Shown here one piece after another: positions 13,428 through 25,743 of a DNA stretch of 32,599 bases. Numbering within the stretch: the first letter of the stretch is position 1; the number at the start of each line of letters is the position of its first letter. Source of the DNA: a virus; IMG/VR virus record IMGVR_UViG_3300021197_000529, positions 1 to 32,599 of that record, one strand, 5' to 3'. A model generated the notes under the pieces. That model was not told the origin of the DNA. It did no database searches and worked only from the letters and a program-made list of their open reading frames with translations. A program made the translations under genes and the position numbers.

Positions 13428-13687
13428 AGTTTACACACTCCATCTTCACAATCATCTGGACCTGTAGTTATTATGTATTCATCTGACCTACCTGCTGTAG
13501 TAGTGGTAGGTAATCTTCCTAAGTTAGCACATGTGAATTGATGAAGCAGGTTATCATCATCTCGTAGTTCACATCTTTTAGCATATATATTGTAGGCATC
13601 TTCAAACTTTAAACTTAATACTTTCGCTCTCTCTGCGTAATCTTCTGCTAATCTTCTTATAATCTCTTGCCTACCTGCTTGTGTCAT
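13424..13687 (-). CDS. Small hypothetical protein downstream of the RusA-like gene
   Basis: 87 aa, coupled to the upstream gene by an ATGA overlap. The N-terminal half is a charged helix (QEIIRRLAEDYAERAKVL). The second half is acidic and ends in DDCEDGVCKL, giving four Cys in total (CELRDDD, CANLG, DDCEDGVC). A metal site is possible but the spacing is not a standard zinc motif. The neighbour suggests a link to recombination, but no function can be read from the sequence. Confidence 0.65.
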   Translation of the reverse strand: MTQAGRQEIIRRLAEDYAERAKVLSLKFEDAYNIYAKRCELRDDDNLLHQFTCANLGRLPTTTTAGRSDEYIITTGPDDCEDGVCKL

Positions 13688-14085
13688 AACTCATCTCCAT
13701 TTAATTCGATAACTACATAGCTATCTTCCATATCATCATCACCAAAACTCGTGGTGAATCCTCTAACATAGTCATAACTATCATCGGCTATCACTTCATG
13801 CTCTACCAGCGCGTCCATTAGGAACTTGTGTACAGGAAATGTATAGTTATCTATGTCTTTCTTTCTTTTTCCTTTAAAGAATAGAATGTACTTAGGTGTG
13901 AGGTTCTTAAACTTAGGTAGAACCTTTACCCACTCTTCTACTTCTTTGTGATAATCTTGCTTTACCTTATTCAGACTAAGGTAGTGCATGTTTCTATAGA
14001 TGTTCATACTAAAGAGATTAGTACGCTTCTTTTCTCCCCTGCCTTTACTATAGGTTGGCAGCTTTATGATGGCTTTATATACCAT
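13684..14085 (-). CDS. RusA-like Holliday junction resolvase
   Basis: 133 aa, close to the usual RusA length of about 120. The signature KRKKDIDNYTFPVHKFLMDAL lies at residues 73-93, with Asp77, Asp79, Asn80, Lys87 and Asp91, followed by Asp101-Asp102. These match the Asp cluster that binds metal in RusA-type resolvases. Such enzymes cut four-way junctions during phage recombination and clear DNA branches before packaging. The gene is separated from the replication genes by a terminator-like hairpin at 14145-14171, so it may have its own promoter. GAGGGAAGG precedes the ATG. Confidence 0.85.
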   Translation of the reverse strand: MVYKAIIKLPTYSKGRGEKKRTNLFSMNIYRNMHYLSLNKVKQDYHKEVEEWVKVLPKFKNLTPKYILFFKGKRKKDIDNYTFPVHKFLMDALVEHEVIADDSYDYVRGFTTSFGDDDMEDSYVVIELNGDEL

Positions 14086-14281: not shown

Positions 14282-15130
14282 CTACTCCTTGTCAAAGTAA
14301 TTATAAACTTCAGCTACCTTCGGGTAATTAACTACATCGACTAAGAACCTAGGTCCAGTTGAATAAGCAAACACCTTCATGTTAGGAAAACAATGTTGTT
14401 TAAACACACAGTAGCTGCACTCCATAGCAAGCTTTGTGTTGCCTGACTTACCATCAGGTACTAACTCATAGCATTGCTCTGGTCTTTCCTCTCTCTCCAC
14501 TACTTCTTTGAGATGTTCTATCTGTACTTCAATAGGTTCATCATGCTCAAAGTTTTCAAAGTGGGTACACAAGTGACCGTTGGTTTTATCTATTACTAAC
14601 CAACCTCCATCTTGTACACCGAGAGAAGCAGCATAACCACGCAGTTGGTCTATGTAACCAAACGGGTCATCCCATCGTAAGCCTCCTTCTTTGAATTTCT
14701 TAAAGCCGAAGGGTGCTGCTGTTTTAACATCAATTAGTTTACCATCAATAACACAGTCCATGCTACCTTTTATTCCAGAAACTTCTGCTTCGGCTTGTTG
14801 GTGTGTGACTTCATGTCCAGCTAGTTTAACAAGAGCTAGTACTAACTCTTCTGTAGCGTGTCCATATAGAAACTTCATAAGAGTACTAGGTTTCATCTGC
14901 TCTTGAGACATACCTTTGTGTACATACCATAGGAATCTTTCCTTCCTACCTATGTTAGACATCCGTAAGGTACGCTTGTCTTTTCTTACCTTGAGTACAT
15001 TATCTCTAAGCAGCGACTTCATAGATTCTCCGAAGTCTTCTATTACTTTATCTACATCTACATGACTATCTGCTTTACTAGAAGACAGTACTCCATACAC
15101 ATCTTCTACTAGTGTGTTTATATTCTTCAT
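14282..15130 (-). CDS. PD-(D/E)XK exonuclease, RecB/Cas4-like
   Basis: 282 aa. Nuclease motifs appear in order: GHATEE (90-95), GSMDCVIDG (122-130, Asp125), LIDVKTA (132-138, Asp134 and Lys136) and DQLRGY (161-166). This is the RecB-type nuclease core. Four Cys follow at 220, 238, 241 and 247 (CSYC, then x5, then C), like the iron-sulphur or zinc cluster of Cas4/AddB relatives. The N-terminal Cys of classic Cas4 is missing; the equivalent SNIGRKER stretch has Arg. It likely degrades host DNA or processes ends in recombination, as T7 gp6 does in position. It is coupled to the upstream gene by ATGA, with GGAGGAG inside that gene. Confidence 0.85.
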   Translation of the reverse strand: MKNINTLVEDVYGVLSSSKADSHVDVDKVIEDFGESMKSLLRDNVLKVRKDKRTLRMSNIGRKERFLWYVHKGMSQEQMKPSTLMKFLYGHATEELVLALVKLAGHEVTHQQAEAEVSGIKGSMDCVIDGKLIDVKTAAPFGFKKFKEGGLRWDDPFGYIDQLRGYAASLGVQDGGWLVIDKTNGHLCTHFENFEHDEPIEVQIEHLKEVVEREERPEQCYELVPDGKSGNTKLAMECSYCVFKQHCFPNMKVFAYSTGPRFLVDVVNYPKVAEVYNYFDKE

Positions 15131-21991: not shown

Positions 21992-22385
21992 CTTTTAACC
22001 CCACTCGTTTAGATATCATCTCTACCATTTCATTTAAAGTCTTGATACACACAACAGTACTATCTATCTTATCGGATAAAGATAATAGCTTTACATCATG
22101 CTTGTTAGTAACAGTTACTAGTTCTAATATAGTTGCACGCAAGCCTTCAATGTCAGCTCTTTCTTGATTGTTCATATTAATCTCTTTATCTTTTTTTAAT
22201 TGTATAACATCTTGGCGATGTCTTTTTACTAAGCTTTTTAATTCAGAATATACTTCATTTAATTCAAGAATATCTTTACGAATAGAACCTTCTTCACACC
22301 AATCACTACCAGTATAAGCACTAGATACTACTCTTTTTGCTACATCTTCAGCATCTGAATCATCATATAAATTTACTAATCCCAT
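21978..22385 (-). CDS. Coiled-coil protein with SAYTGSD motif
   Basis: 135 aa. An acidic N-terminus is followed by SSAYTGSDWCEEGSIRK at about residues 21-37, then long helices with heptad spacing (LNEVYSELKSLVKRHRQDV, LEGLRATILELVTV-like) to the end. The SAYTGSD block and the helical segment after it are shared with the gene at 23124-23573, so the two look like diverged relatives. It shares the AGGAGATTAGTATG leader with two other genes. Function unknown. Confidence 0.7.
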   Translation of the reverse strand: MGLVNLYDDSDAEDVAKRVVSSAYTGSDWCEEGSIRKDILELNEVYSELKSLVKRHRQDVIQLKKDKEINMNNQERADIEGLRATILELVTVTNKHDVKLLSLSDKIDSTVVCIKTLNEMVEMISKRVGLKDESE

Positions 22386-22577
22386 ACTAATCTCCTCTAT
22401 TAAAATAAGTGAGCAGTTTCTTTATACAATCACATACTCAGGTGACCTGTTGTAGCGCCTCGTAGTCTTGTTCCATTTCCCAAGGCAGTTACATGTATTG
22501 GCAGGTTCATTAACTACAAACTTCCCCTGCTATCCTCATCATAGATTATGTAAACTCATGGATGGTAGTTGGATATA
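22386..22577. other. Non-coding gap with leader repeat and palindrome
   Basis: Holds CAGGTGACCTG (a perfect palindrome around one base) at about 22440-22450, and the words CATACTCAGG (22433-22442) and TAAGTGAG (22406-22413). Both words recur in the same order in the gap upstream of the gene at 22918. It is probably a leader or promoter region for the 135-aa gene. Only very short frames are present. Confidence 0.4.
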
Positions 22578-22724
22578 CTATATATACATGTGCCACAAGT
22601 AAGGTATATAACCTACGACAAAACCCCAGAAGAATCCATTGAATCTTTCTTTGTACTTAGGGTTAGTGTAATGTTCTATTTCATTGATAAAGACTTTATC
22701 TTTATCTCTTATGTTATATTTCAT
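22578..22724 (-). CDS. 48-aa protein with one membrane span
   Basis: Begins MKYNIRDKDKVFINEIEHYT (polar). It then has NPKYKERFNG and a hydrophobic aromatic segment (FFWGFVVGYIPYLWHMYI) to the end. ATG overlaps the stop of the 65-aa gene as ATGA, and AGGAGCTAAG lies a few bases before. N-in, single-span layout is likely. It could act at the inner membrane, for example in superinfection exclusion, but nothing in the sequence decides this. Confidence 0.75.
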   Translation of the reverse strand: MKYNIRDKDKVFINEIEHYTNPKYKERFNGFFWGFVVGYIPYLWHMYI

Positions 22725-22918
22725 AAGCTTAGCTCCTTGAAGTCATTGTCTTGTTGCTTTGCCCAGTCAACAGGTACAATAGCACCATTTAATTTATACA
22801 TATTTTCATCTATCTGCTCTGTATATAAGAACACATTGTCTTCATCATATACTCTGCAAACTAATTCACCCCACTCATTACGATGTACTTCGTTAGGTGG
22901 TATTGTTAATACTGACAT
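22721..22918 (-). CDS. Small hypothetical protein
   Basis: 65 aa, acidic, with alternating strands (SVLTIPPNEVHRNEWGELVCRVYDED, then VFLYTEQIDENMYKLNGAIVPVDW), a beta-sheet-like pattern. AGGAGATTATT precedes the ATG, one base different from the leader at 22385, 20517 and 20264. It is the first gene after the terminator at 23082-23114, so it likely opens a new transcript. No family recognised. Confidence 0.65.
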   Translation of the reverse strand: MSVLTIPPNEVHRNEWGELVCRVYDEDNVFLYTEQIDENMYKLNGAIVPVDWAKQQDNDFKELSL

Positions 22919-23018
22919 AATAATCTCCTCTAAGTAAGTGAGTAGTTTAAGGAGAACACAGCTCTTGTTGAGGGTGTACGCATAGTCATACTCAGGACTA
23001 TTGTTAAAATCCCAGACG

Positions 23019-23081
23019 AATCTCTTCTATTACAAGTTGCGAAAGCATTGTAAGTAAAAGAGAGATTGTTTTACGAACAAT
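23019..23081. other. Two hairpins beside the terminator, one with a GAAA loop
   Basis: AATCTCT (23019-23025) pairs with AGAGATT (23061-23067). Inside it TTACAA (23030-23035) pairs with TTGTAA (23048-23053) and TGC-GAAA-GCA (23038-23047) forms the tip. The GNRA-type GAAA loop exists only on the plus strand. A second hairpin, ATTGTT/AACAAT (23065-23070, 23076-23081), partly competes with the first. It may be a small RNA, a leader or a second barrier to transcription. Confidence 0.4.
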
Positions 23082-23114
23082 AAAAAAAGACAGACAGAAG
23101 TTAATCTGCCTGCC
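23082..23114 (-). terminator. Rho-independent terminator, minus strand
   Basis: On the minus strand GGCAGGCAGA (23114-23105) pairs with TCTGTCTGTC (23098-23089) in ten pairs, two of them G-U, around a six-base loop. Seven T follow directly (23088-23082). It lies nine bases past the stop of the 149-aa gene and would isolate the first three early genes from the rest. Confidence 0.85.
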
Positions 23115-23123
23115 TTGATTGAG

Positions 23124-23573
23124 TTACTTAGTAACACTCATGTTTTCTAACAGAGCCTTAGCCTGTAACATTGCAGATGATGAATTAATATCTGCTGTTG
23201 CTGACTTCTTAACAGGTACTGTATACTCAACAGAGAATTGTTCTTTATGAATAGAGTAGAGTACAGTTCTTAAAGACTCCATTTCATTTTGAGATACTTG
23301 TAAGTTCTCAATGAAATCAACCTTGCGTTGTATTCTATCTTCTTGAACATCGCTACCTGTATAAGCAGATTCACTCATATCTCTTAACTCACTTACTTGT
23401 TTAGAGATATATTCTGCTTGAGATTTACATCTATTTTGAACAGACCAGCATAGAGTTTTAACAACAGCACCTAGAGATGAGTATTCCTCATTCTTCATGC
23501 CTTCTCTATCAGTCACGACATTATCTTTAGTGAAGTATTTATCAGTTAAGATTTTAGTTAGTTCCTTTTTCAT
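23124..23573 (-). CDS. SAYTGSD-motif early protein
   Basis: 149 aa from ATG 23573, which overlaps the stop of the 57-aa gene (TAATG) and follows CAAGGAGCAAGA. A farther ATG at 23615 would add 14 residues and overlap that gene; it is less likely. Helical and polar, with ESAYTGSDVQEDRIQRKVDF at about residues 70-90 and a Ser/Ala-rich end. Related to the 135-aa gene at 21978-22385 through the SAYTGSD block. As third gene of the first early transcript it may act soon after entry. Function unknown. Confidence 0.7.
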   Translation of the reverse strand: MKKELTKILTDKYFTKDNVVTDREGMKNEEYSSLGAVVKTLCWSVQNRCKSQAEYISKQVSELRDMSESAYTGSDVQEDRIQRKVDFIENLQVSQNEMESLRTVLYSIHKEQFSVEYTVPVKKSATADINSSSAMLQAKALLENMSVTK

Positions 23574-23746
23574 TATCTTGCTCCTTGGTTTATTGTTATA
23601 AAAGTTTCTAGACATTTGTTATACAGACTATCTAACTCCTGCCTGCGTGCAGGCTTTGTTATAACCCTGCGTAATCTATCAATTGTCTTCATCTCTCTAG
23701 CTATAGAGATATTAATTGCTTTAAGTGTTATATCGTTATACTCCAT
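23573..23746 (-). CDS. 57-aa basic helical protein
   Basis: Begins MEYNDITLKAINISIARE and continues with a charged helix (MKTIDRLRRVITKPARRQELDSLYNKC). Both ends overlap neighbours by TAATG, and AGGAG lies just upstream of the ATG. It is probably helical and basic, between the RHH-like regulator and the 149-aa protein in one transcript. It might bind DNA or a host protein; no family recognised. Confidence 0.75.
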   Translation of the reverse strand: MEYNDITLKAINISIAREMKTIDRLRRVITKPARRQELDSLYNKCLETFITINQGAR

Positions 23747-23970
23747 TATGCGCTCCTATATTTATGTTCTAGTTTTTCTACTTCATCTAAAAGCAAAGCT
23801 TGAAATACAGAAGACATATTAACATTCTTATGTCCTCTTTCTTCCAAGTCATGATTTAGAAATTTCATGACATACTCAAGTCTATTGTACAAATGACTTG
23901 TACATCTAAATGTAACTGTTCTACTTTTCCTATCATTATTTATATATTTATTTAAGATTTTATCTTTCAT
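23746..23970 (-). CDS. Ribbon-helix-helix-like regulator, first early gene
   Basis: 74 aa. A basic start (LNKYINNDRKSR) is followed by a short strand (TVTFRC) and two helices (SHLYNRLEYVMKFLNHDLEE and VNMSSVFQALLLDEVEKLE). This strand-helix-turn-helix layout is that of Arc/MetJ-type DNA-binding proteins, though the linker between helices is longer than usual. It is the first gene leftward from the large intergenic region, a fitting place for a regulator of the divergent blocks. GGAGTAAAT precedes the ATG. The fold call is by eye. Confidence 0.6.
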   Translation of the reverse strand: MKDKILNKYINNDRKSRTVTFRCTSHLYNRLEYVMKFLNHDLEERGHKNVNMSSVFQALLLDEVEKLEHKYRSA

Positions 23971-24006
23971 TATTTACTCCATTATTATTAAAGAAGTCCA
24001 TCGTAA

Positions 24007-24178
24007 CTACTACGCTGAACAGGCTCTTTATTGCATAGGCTTGGAACAAGTGACGCTTGTCAAGGACTTTCGTGCTGTTCTAAAGTCCAAGCTCTTGACA
24101 AGGGCGTCATAGGATTGTCTTGAGCCATTCAAGCAATCCGTTACCTATGCGATAATAGGACAGTTCAGAGAGTAGTAG
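24007..24178 (+). ncRNA. Domain 1: three-way junction, best-supported RNA fold
   Basis: Outer helix: CTACTAC/GTAGTAG (24007-24013, 24172-24178) plus CTGAAC/GTTCAG (24015-24020, 24163-24168). P1: TTATTGCATAGG/CCTATGCGATAA (24028-24039, 24144-24155), twelve pairs with one U-G. P2: GTGACG/CGTCAT (24050-24055, 24105-24110, one G-U), CTTGTCAAG/CTTGACAAG (24056-24064, 24094-24102), GACTTT/AAAGTC (24065-24070, 24082-24087). P3: GGATTG-t-CTTGA / TCAAGCAATCC (24112-24123, 24129-24139). P1, P2 and P3 meet in one junction. About two thirds of all bases are paired. Both non-Watson-Crick pairs are G-U only when read on the plus strand. Confidence 0.75.
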
Positions 24179-24520
24179 TATTAGGGAACAATCAGCACCT
24201 CACCGATAGTAGCAAACAACAAAGGTTTACTTAAAGTAACAACTGCCCTAAGCAGTTTTATTCTAGGGTTACTTCTGAGTAACACTAGAACCTTATCCAG
24301 CGCATTACGATAAACTATATACAACATCTATACAGCAACAATGTGAACGCATTAAATCTATGTGAGCCTAATACCTTGGTGTTTAGATTTATACAAGGAA
24401 CATTGTTGCGCTTCTTGCGCTGGTTAGGCTTTATCCTTTGTGGCTTGCGTTGATAACATCAGAGTAATTACAATCTAACTATAGAGAGAGGCTTGTTATG
24501 AATTATTTATTGTATACACA

Positions 24521-24539
24521 TGTTATAGTCACTATCACA
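24521..24539. promoter_or_regulatory. 19-bp dyad, operator-like
   Basis: TGTTATAGTCACTATCACA reads TGTnATAGTnACTATnACA, symmetric around 24530. The loop would be one base, so it is not an RNA hairpin; a dimeric DNA-binding protein site fits better. The RHH-like or HTH protein encoded in the minus block are candidate binders (inference). It lies within an otherwise open part of domain 3. Confidence 0.4.
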
Positions 24540-24737
24540 CTCTCTTTTACATCAACTTCAGAGGATAACAGTTAAACTTGGGTACAACATCAGTTTACTA
24601 CAGTTCTCTAAACACCCGTAGGGGGAGCCTAACAGTAATGTCAGTCTAATAAATAAACAATCACCTCTAGATGAGAGTCGATTTCGGCATCATAAGTAAT
24701 ACTTATTAATACTATAGAAAATAGAAGTAATTATTAG

Positions 24738-24766
24738 TTTACAAAGCAGTAAAAGTATGCTAAACT
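24738..24766 (+). promoter_or_regulatory. Sigma-70-like promoter toward packaging genes
   Basis: TTTACA (24738-24743), 17-base spacer, TAAACT (24761-24766) with TG one base before the -10 (TGCTAAACT). It points rightward to the terminase genes and lies just past the structured region, in an AT-rich stretch. Confidence 0.6.
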
Positions 24767-24879
24767 CTTACAAGTTTGTTACTTAAGTTACATACGCGAG
24801 CCTAGTACAATCTAAAACAAGCAGCAGGTAGTTATTCAGATTCTTTTACTTAAATACTAACATGCGTGTAACCTAAGTA

Positions 24880-24888
24880 TGCTATACT
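24880..24888 (+). promoter_or_regulatory. Extended -10 promoter before the small terminase candidate
   Basis: TGCTATACT at 24880-24888, about 27 bases before the ATG at 24915. ACATG and ACCTAA stand upstream in the same order as at the portal promoter (27019-27027). No good -35 is seen, so it may need the extended -10 or a phage activator. Confidence 0.55.
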
Positions 24889-24914
24889 TCAGTTTTTCCT
24901 TAATGTATTAGGTT

Positions 24915-25313
24915 ATGACTGAACACGACAAAAGAAGAAACAATAAAGGTAATCCTGCTTTGTATAAAGGTATGGCTCCTTTAAATCCTCAAGGCAGACC
25001 TAAGGGTAGTATGAACAAGTATACTATCTTGTCCAGAGAGCTGCTTACCGAGCGGGGACCTGAGATAGTCCAAGTAATCATAGATAGAGCTTTAAAAGGT
25101 GACGTGCATTGTCTTAAGATGTGTATGGATAGAATTGTACCTACTACTAAAGCTGTAGAGATAAACCATAGGAAGCATGATGGTGGTGTTGTAATTAATG
25201 TAGGCACTACAGAACAAATCGAGGAGCAAGCCAAGAAAATCAAACCAAAGCAGGTAAGAAGTAAATCTGAGGATACTGTAGTAGCTGAGGTATTAGATGA
25301 GCTTTCAGACTGA
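24915..25313 (+). CDS. Putative small terminase subunit / DUF5681-like protein
   Basis: 132 aa. The N-terminal part has NPQGRPKGSMNKYT (about residues 24-37), the start pattern of DUF5681-type proteins and also AT-hook-like (GRPKG). Helices follow (SRELLTERGPEIVQVIIDRALKGDVHCLKMCMDRIVP), then an acidic end. The gene is first in the packaging transcript, with the large terminase two genes on, so a DNA-recognition role in packaging is likely. A promoter-like TGCTATACT lies just upstream. The ribosome site is weak (TTAGG). It overlaps the next gene by 17 bases. Confidence 0.6.
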   Translation: MTEHDKRRNNKGNPALYKGMAPLNPQGRPKGSMNKYTILSRELLTERGPEIVQVIIDRALKGDVHCLKMCMDRIVPTTKAVEINHRKHDGGVVINVGTTEQIEEQAKKIKPKQVRSKSEDTVVAEVLDELSD

Positions 25314-25743
25314 TTTAAACTTTGGTGAACAAGGTGAGCTGTTTGTATTAGAAAAGCTACACTATAAATATCCTAAAGCATACAAAGTACAAGGCTACTA
25401 TAAAGAGTGGGATTTGTTTATACCTGAAAAAGATTTAGGTATAGAAGTTAAAAGTGATAGAGCTACCCATAAAACTGGTAATGTAGTTATAGAGAATAAA
25501 TATGGGGATGCGCCTTCAGGCATTGAAACAACTAAAGCTGCTTGGTGGGCATATATTACTAGGGATAATTTATATTGGATAACACCTGATAAAATTAAAG
25601 AATGTATAAAAGATAATAATCTAGAAGCTAGAGAATTTCCTCCTGTAAAAGGTGACTTTAAAAAGAAATCTTTATACTTAATAAAAGAAACCTTGTTTAA
25701 AAAATACGTAAAGCGTTCAGAGAAAATAAATGGCAGAAATTAA
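25297..25743 (+). CDS. PD-(D/E)XK-type nuclease between the terminase genes
   Basis: 148 aa. GEQGELFVLEKL (10-21, Glu14) is followed by YYKEWDLFI (34-42, Asp39) and LGIEVKSD (47-54, Glu50-Val-Lys52), the Glu...Asp...ExK order of restriction-type and resolvase-type nucleases. A Trp-rich stretch follows (AAWWAYITRDNLYWITP). It might cut branched or unpackaged DNA during packaging, or be a diverged endonuclease of the host-takeover set. It overlaps the genes on both sides (17 and 14 bases). The call is motif-based; the exact family is not recognised. Confidence 0.7.
   Translation: MSFQTDLNFGEQGELFVLEKLHYKYPKAYKVQGYYKEWDLFIPEKDLGIEVKSDRATHKTGNVVIENKYGDAPSGIETTKAAWWAYITRDNLYWITPDKIKECIKDNNLEAREFPPVKGDFKKKSLYLIKETLFKKYVKRSEKINGRN

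Follow-up and report, generated by a model that had tools for sequence, protein, structure and literature searches.

A self-complementary cassette of changing sequence between the diverging early and packaging genes of metagenomic phages

GOLLD and ROOL are known from phages. The locus described here resembles these two and OLE (PMC12286853) in extending over hundreds of nucleotides and folding into multiple hairpins, but it has no covariance-model match and no conserved motif, and its stems are swapped wholesale between close relatives. It also resembles quasi-palindromes, imperfect inverted repeats in which mutations extending arm identity are known and are attributed to template switching, the arms thereby mutating towards likeness (PMC3820800). 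Unlike these, the inverted repeats considered here reach up to 1.2 kb, lie at one syntenic place clade-wide and can combine one coding with one non-coding arm. A structured nucleic acid at the phage terminase region is represented by the cabRNA of staphylococcal phages, which is transcribed from the terminase genes themselves (PMC10686824), whereas the present element lies upstream of them and is known as DNA sequence. Obelisks and viroid-like rods (PMC11922315) are rod-like folds of about 1 kb that contain a protein gene, as do the relatives with gene-sized palindromes, but they are circular RNA replicons; the present element belongs to the genome of a DNA phage, and no gene-sized rod is present in the window. 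No precedent for such a locus was found in open-access papers.

The early/packaging gap of the window and its folding

The window, an IMG/VR virus record of 32,599 bases, contains a gap of 944 nt (23971-24914) that separates a diverging leftward block (PolA, a DnaB/Toprim primase-helicase, a DUF932 protein and small ORFs) from a rightward block (TerS-like protein, TerL, portal and major head protein). The gap is bounded by a small first leftward ORF of 74 aa (23746-23970, minus strand) and by the TerS-like protein (DUF5681; 24915-25313, plus strand). An early protein of 163 aa with a predicted helical hairpin (23124-23615, minus strand) is the counterpart of the gene that is mirrored in relatives (see below). 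The absence of a convincing gene, as given in an initial annotation of this DNA, was confirmed, with no ORF of at least 60 aa within the 944 nt, and no tRNA or tmRNA was detected in the gap. Among isolate phages, neither the window at the nucleotide level nor its TerS had a relative, and a host search in bacterial genome records yielded no more than a distant TerL relative (62%) from a Methylophaga MAG whose upstream arrangement differs from that of the window. The phages are presumably marine, which is the usual reading of these collections.

Elsewhere in the window, a RusA-like Holliday junction resolvase (13684-14085, minus strand), which could act on cruciforms, lies near the end of the early block, and a Cas4-domain exonuclease-like protein is found at 14282-15130 (minus strand; PHROG 1990, E 2e-40). 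The protein encoded between TerS and TerL (25297-25743, plus strand) has by eye the look of a PDDEXK-type nuclease (GEQGE..WDLFIPEKDLGIEVK); its positional counterpart in the relative L230 matches PDDEXK_15, and the two proteins gave no significant match to each other by BLASTP.

The initial annotation had described the gap as filled with long complementary segments, and long inverted repeats are indeed present. Positions 24000-24640 fold at -180.3 kcal/mol, compared with -147.8 +/- 6.0 for shuffles (z -5.45), and the whole gap gives z scores of -3.5 and -4.4 on the plus and minus strands, respectively. The structured portion corresponds to 24014-24478 (z -4.4 on either strand), while 24480-24914 is not unusually structured (z +1.6 and -1.4 on the plus and minus strands, respectively). 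The gap itself, its non-coding nature and its strong self-complementarity are confirmed.

Three domains had been claimed, of which domains 1 and 2 (24007-24448) hold. The window's own family comprises only four to seven members, and searches with exact DNA patterns and the 163-aa protein found few more; among L007, L015 and L026 the flanks of the domain 1 and 2 hairpins are retained and the stems differ yet pair. Domain 1 is a long stem (about 24007-24179) whose outer part, CTACTACG..CTGAAC with GTTCAG..AGTAGTAG, closes two branch hairpins; the outer stem is common to L015, L024, L052 and L129, in which the interior is different. Branch a (24051-24109; TGACGC..TTGTCAA..GGACTTT with AAAGTCC..TTGACAA..GCGTCA) changes from GTGACGC/GCGTCAT to GTAACGC/GCGTTAT in L015. 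In branch b (24112-24139; GGATTGTCTTGA[GCCAT]TCAAGCAATCC) the stem GGATTGTCTTGA/TCAAGCAATCC becomes GGATTGTCATCA/TGATGCAATCC in the comparison of L007, L015 and L026, and CTTGA/TCAAG becomes CATCA/TGATG by two double changes in L026. The outer stem of domain 2 (24212-24448; GCAAACAACAAAGG with CCTTTGTGGCTTGC) encloses several hairpins. The first, AACTGC[CCTAA]GCAGTT (24241-24257), is weakly terminator-like and is replaced by AACTGT/ACAGTT in L015 and AATCC/GGATT in L026; the hairpin TCTAGGGTTACT/AGTAACACTAGA (24262-24289) has another self-complementary sequence in its interior in both of these. An inner stem, AACCTTATCCAGCGCA with TGCGCTGGTTAGGCTT (24289-24431), contains an apical hairpin (24335-24344 with 24400-24409), and its CAGCGCT/AGCGCTG is kept in L007 and L026, in which the apical hairpins are unrelated.

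The third domain was not upheld: its 3' half ACATCAACT (from 24551) is conserved in L007, L129 and L015, which are without the 5' half GTTGATAACATCAGAG, and the region from 24480 has the ordinary folding noted above. The annotated internal pseudoknot was not confirmed: the sole perfect long candidate found (24378-24387 with 24607-24616) has its 3' half in L002, L105 and L129, all without the 5' half, about 0.4 such 10-nt matches are expected by chance, and this candidate was rejected. The right flank (24476-24914, plus strand) is conserved, and in it the block 24523-24612 is retained across hairpin types, as is the ATAAACAATCACCTCTAGATGAGAG block (24640-24690); a second AAGTATGCTATACT element is located at 24875-24888 (plus strand), 122 nt after AAGTATGCTAAACT.

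The same locus in relatives

Relatives were gathered as 80 TerL relatives from IMG/VR, followed by more from other centres; the contigs are metagenomic, and the hairpin representatives share ancestry. Gaps, mostly of about 0.7-1.4 kb, recur in them, and 27 of 28 show strong folding (z -3 to -16) in the 300 nt that adjoin the first leftward gene; in L035, the one exception, ORF choice shortened the gap. In closer relatives, among 260-nt folds in the 3 kb upstream of TerL the hairpin is usually the most stable, and a long hairpin occupies the same place in nearly all of them. Distant relatives (for example, L079 and L175) are mostly without such hairpins or without the divergent arrangement.

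The hairpins themselves fall into many families that lack sequence similarity, even at a TerL identity of 97-99%, and sequence-unrelated cassettes replace each other between close relatives. The clearest example is the relative L129, which over 22379-24020 and 24476-26499 matches the window at 91-93% identity, but the intervening stretch of the window (24021-24475), the extent of the exchangeable cassette, is absent from it, and an unrelated cassette of 219 nt (z -6.9) stands in its place. The commonest 5-mer of the left arms, GTCAA (20 of 27), is barely in excess once families are collapsed (9/15 versus 8/15 for others).

In about ten relatives there are gene-sized palindromes of 787-1236 nt, which take in the first early gene entirely or for the most part. 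In type A (L003, L006, L011, L016, L017, L018, L023 and L127) the palindrome is imperfect (77-81% identity), is about 1.1-1.24 kb long and has the hairpin at its centre; within it lies the complete first early gene together with its leader and its terminator-like hairpin. Similar palindromes of 787-1207 nt (69-72%) are present in L043, L045, L051/L062 and L048. In some relatives an entire early gene makes up one arm and a non-coding mirror of it the other. The mirrored gene is under purifying selection (omega 0.22-0.56), and the mirror copy contains frameshifts and in-frame stops. The first genes of L041, L048 and L051 bear little resemblance to the type A ones, and both kinds are mirrored. 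Gene-mirror types are without the small first leftward ORF beside the gap; the window has no gene mirror, and its 74-aa ORF lies outside the hairpins. Stops in the mirror copy (46 versus 24 expected, for single-change codons) were considered as a design feature, which was rejected since their excess is partly explained by an excess of changes to T (N-to-T, 153 of 351 changes).

Both ends of the L013 contig (G001; 37,065 nt) lie close to the palindrome's right edge, and a physical genome end in the gap was considered; it was not adopted because other contigs cross this point and an assembly break in L013 is as likely. The L009 and L012 contigs, from two samples, start at the identical base, 101 nt before TerS. 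The L083 contig (G002) carries an exact direct repeat of 98 bases at both ends, which suggests that the genome is complete at about 35.6 kb.

Concerted change between arms and strand signals

Compensatory changes had been predicted for related gaps, and they are abundant: of two hairpin alignments of relatives, A4 has changes on both sides in 22 of 41 pairs and A5 in 32 of 109; no shuffle out of 500 came to these numbers, and slid controls stayed far below them. Together with the covariation of several distinct hairpins in domains 1 and 2 (from few sequences), this favours the structure proposed in the initial annotation, a large structured non-coding RNA. Such an RNA, probably from the plus strand and with stems evolving fast under pairing selection, might during infection serve as decoy, scaffold or regulator. 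Covariation does not prove RNA, since copying from arm to arm yields the same signal.

In type A, the left and right arms of the same lineage are 0.78-0.87 identical. Between lineages, identity is mostly 0.57-0.72 for right arms, with a maximum of 0.89 among the closest pairs, and 0.65-0.91 for left arms, and in most lineage pairs own arms are more alike than orthologous arms; arm copying was assessed in relatives, with seven lineages of type A and a small number of others covered. The right arm mirrors about half of the differences that separate the genes of two lineages (67/112 for L011/L017 and 70/142 for L018/L127). Mirrored and unmirrored changes are clustered along the gene in four of six lineage pairs (P < 0.01), which regional constraint could also bring about, and mirroring shows no preference for transitions over transversions (P 0.80). 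The clustering and the absent transition excess fit tract copying between arms. Several bulges and mismatches common to lineages with differing paired bases speak, on the other hand, against pure copying, since copying of whole arms would remove them, and are in keeping with a structured RNA. With one arm coding and the mirroring patchy, copying at the DNA level is at least as likely as RNA in these relatives.

Patchy copying would also be expected if the hairpins were a functionless by-product, that is, if fold-back synthesis repeatedly made inverted copies of its neighbours, which decay and are then re-made. The non-coding mirror copy with its N-to-T drift, and the mirroring of very different first genes, point the same way. 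We nevertheless consider this unlikely, as a self-complementary gap of about 0.7-1.4 kb persists clade-wide in a compact phage and the shared bulges argue for a maintained shape.

The plus-strand assignment was not confirmed. The three G-U wobbles on which the initial annotation had based it (24032/24151, 24050/24110 and 24438/24561) are present at those positions, but so is an A.C mismatch (24216/24444), and the two strands fold about equally. Most hairpin families have no strand bias; type C has a clear plus-strand excess of G.U, its one-sided changes being mostly G.U, which favours RNA there. A non-redundant count gave GU:AC of 20:9 (P 0.06), and the same count gave 6:4 on real structured RNAs (E. 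coli 16S, 23S and RNase P RNA), so wobble counting is without power to decide the strand, and strand assignment by this means was rejected after the control.

Promoter-like sites occur in and around the cassette. A rightward site in the window, TTTACA-17-TAAACT with TG before the -10 (24738-24766, plus strand), is kept in the close relatives aligned, some with TACAAT as -10, so the packaging genes need not be transcribed through the cassette. In type A, TTTACT/TTGACA-17-TATAGT, made by a small right-arm bulge, points right just after the apex, which fits a structured RNA. Divergent apex promoters were rejected as a general rule, being strong only in type A, L020, L037 and L103 and missing in most families, and no promoter arrangement is common to all hairpin families. 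In type C, the left arm carries a leftward TTTACA-17-TATAAA close to its base, and an early mRNA from this site would not have to include the hairpin. This site bears on a leader switch, in which a leftward transcript from the right of the cassette would fold and hide the start of the first early gene. The hairpin does directly precede the first leftward gene's ribosome-binding site, and in type A it covers the whole gene; a leader switch is still highly improbable, given a type C mRNA that would lack the hairpin, a first gene outside the palindrome in the window and the failure to find a conserved leftward promoter to the right of the cassette.

Against RNA, no match in Rfam was obtained for the gap at gathering thresholds (including GOLLD, ROOL, OLE and IMES), in agreement with the annotated lack of a GOLLD or ROOL signature, and relaxed thresholds gave only chance-level matches to unrelated families. 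Equal folding on both strands, together with patchy mirroring without transition preference, means that DNA copying explains the covariation at least as well. For the structured RNA as annotated, the covariation stands; neither an overall strand preference nor a conserved RNA-like motif was found. The feature is real and unusual, and its covariation was correctly predicted.

Possible use of the folded cassette

The reading we prefer, with a probability of roughly two in five, is a fold-back DNA cassette that is kept because some task at the early/late junction depends on the hairpin; a structured RNA is possible and ranks next, ahead of the functionless by-product. Positions 24007-24448 of the window would then be one allele of a hypervariable cassette located where the early and packaging blocks diverge, in which self-complementarity, not sequence, would be the preserved property. 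The arms would be kept alike mainly by tract-wise copying, the polymerase switching template at the hairpin, and whole cassettes would be exchanged by recombination. The ability to form a hairpin may be retained for use of the folded strand or of a cruciform at the junction; that the pairing is used at all we infer from its clade-wide retention. Its use would most plausibly lie in starting or organising replication or early/late transcription, and for a replication origin it is the position and gene content that are suggestive. More doubtful than the fold-back cassette as such is the narrower proposal that nothing but self-complementarity is selected, so that unrelated hairpin cassettes, or a gene mirror kept in step, would be interchangeable and act via the folded strand.

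As a general warning, covariation alone is no proof of RNA, because it also arises when the arms of a palindrome are copied from one another. A locus that keeps its pairing but loses its sequence is invisible to homology searches and to alignment-based covariance models. If the cassette is functional, syntenic self-complementarity instead of conservation would be the rule by which to search for others, and why a phage should keep a non-coding mirror of its own gene would become a testable question.
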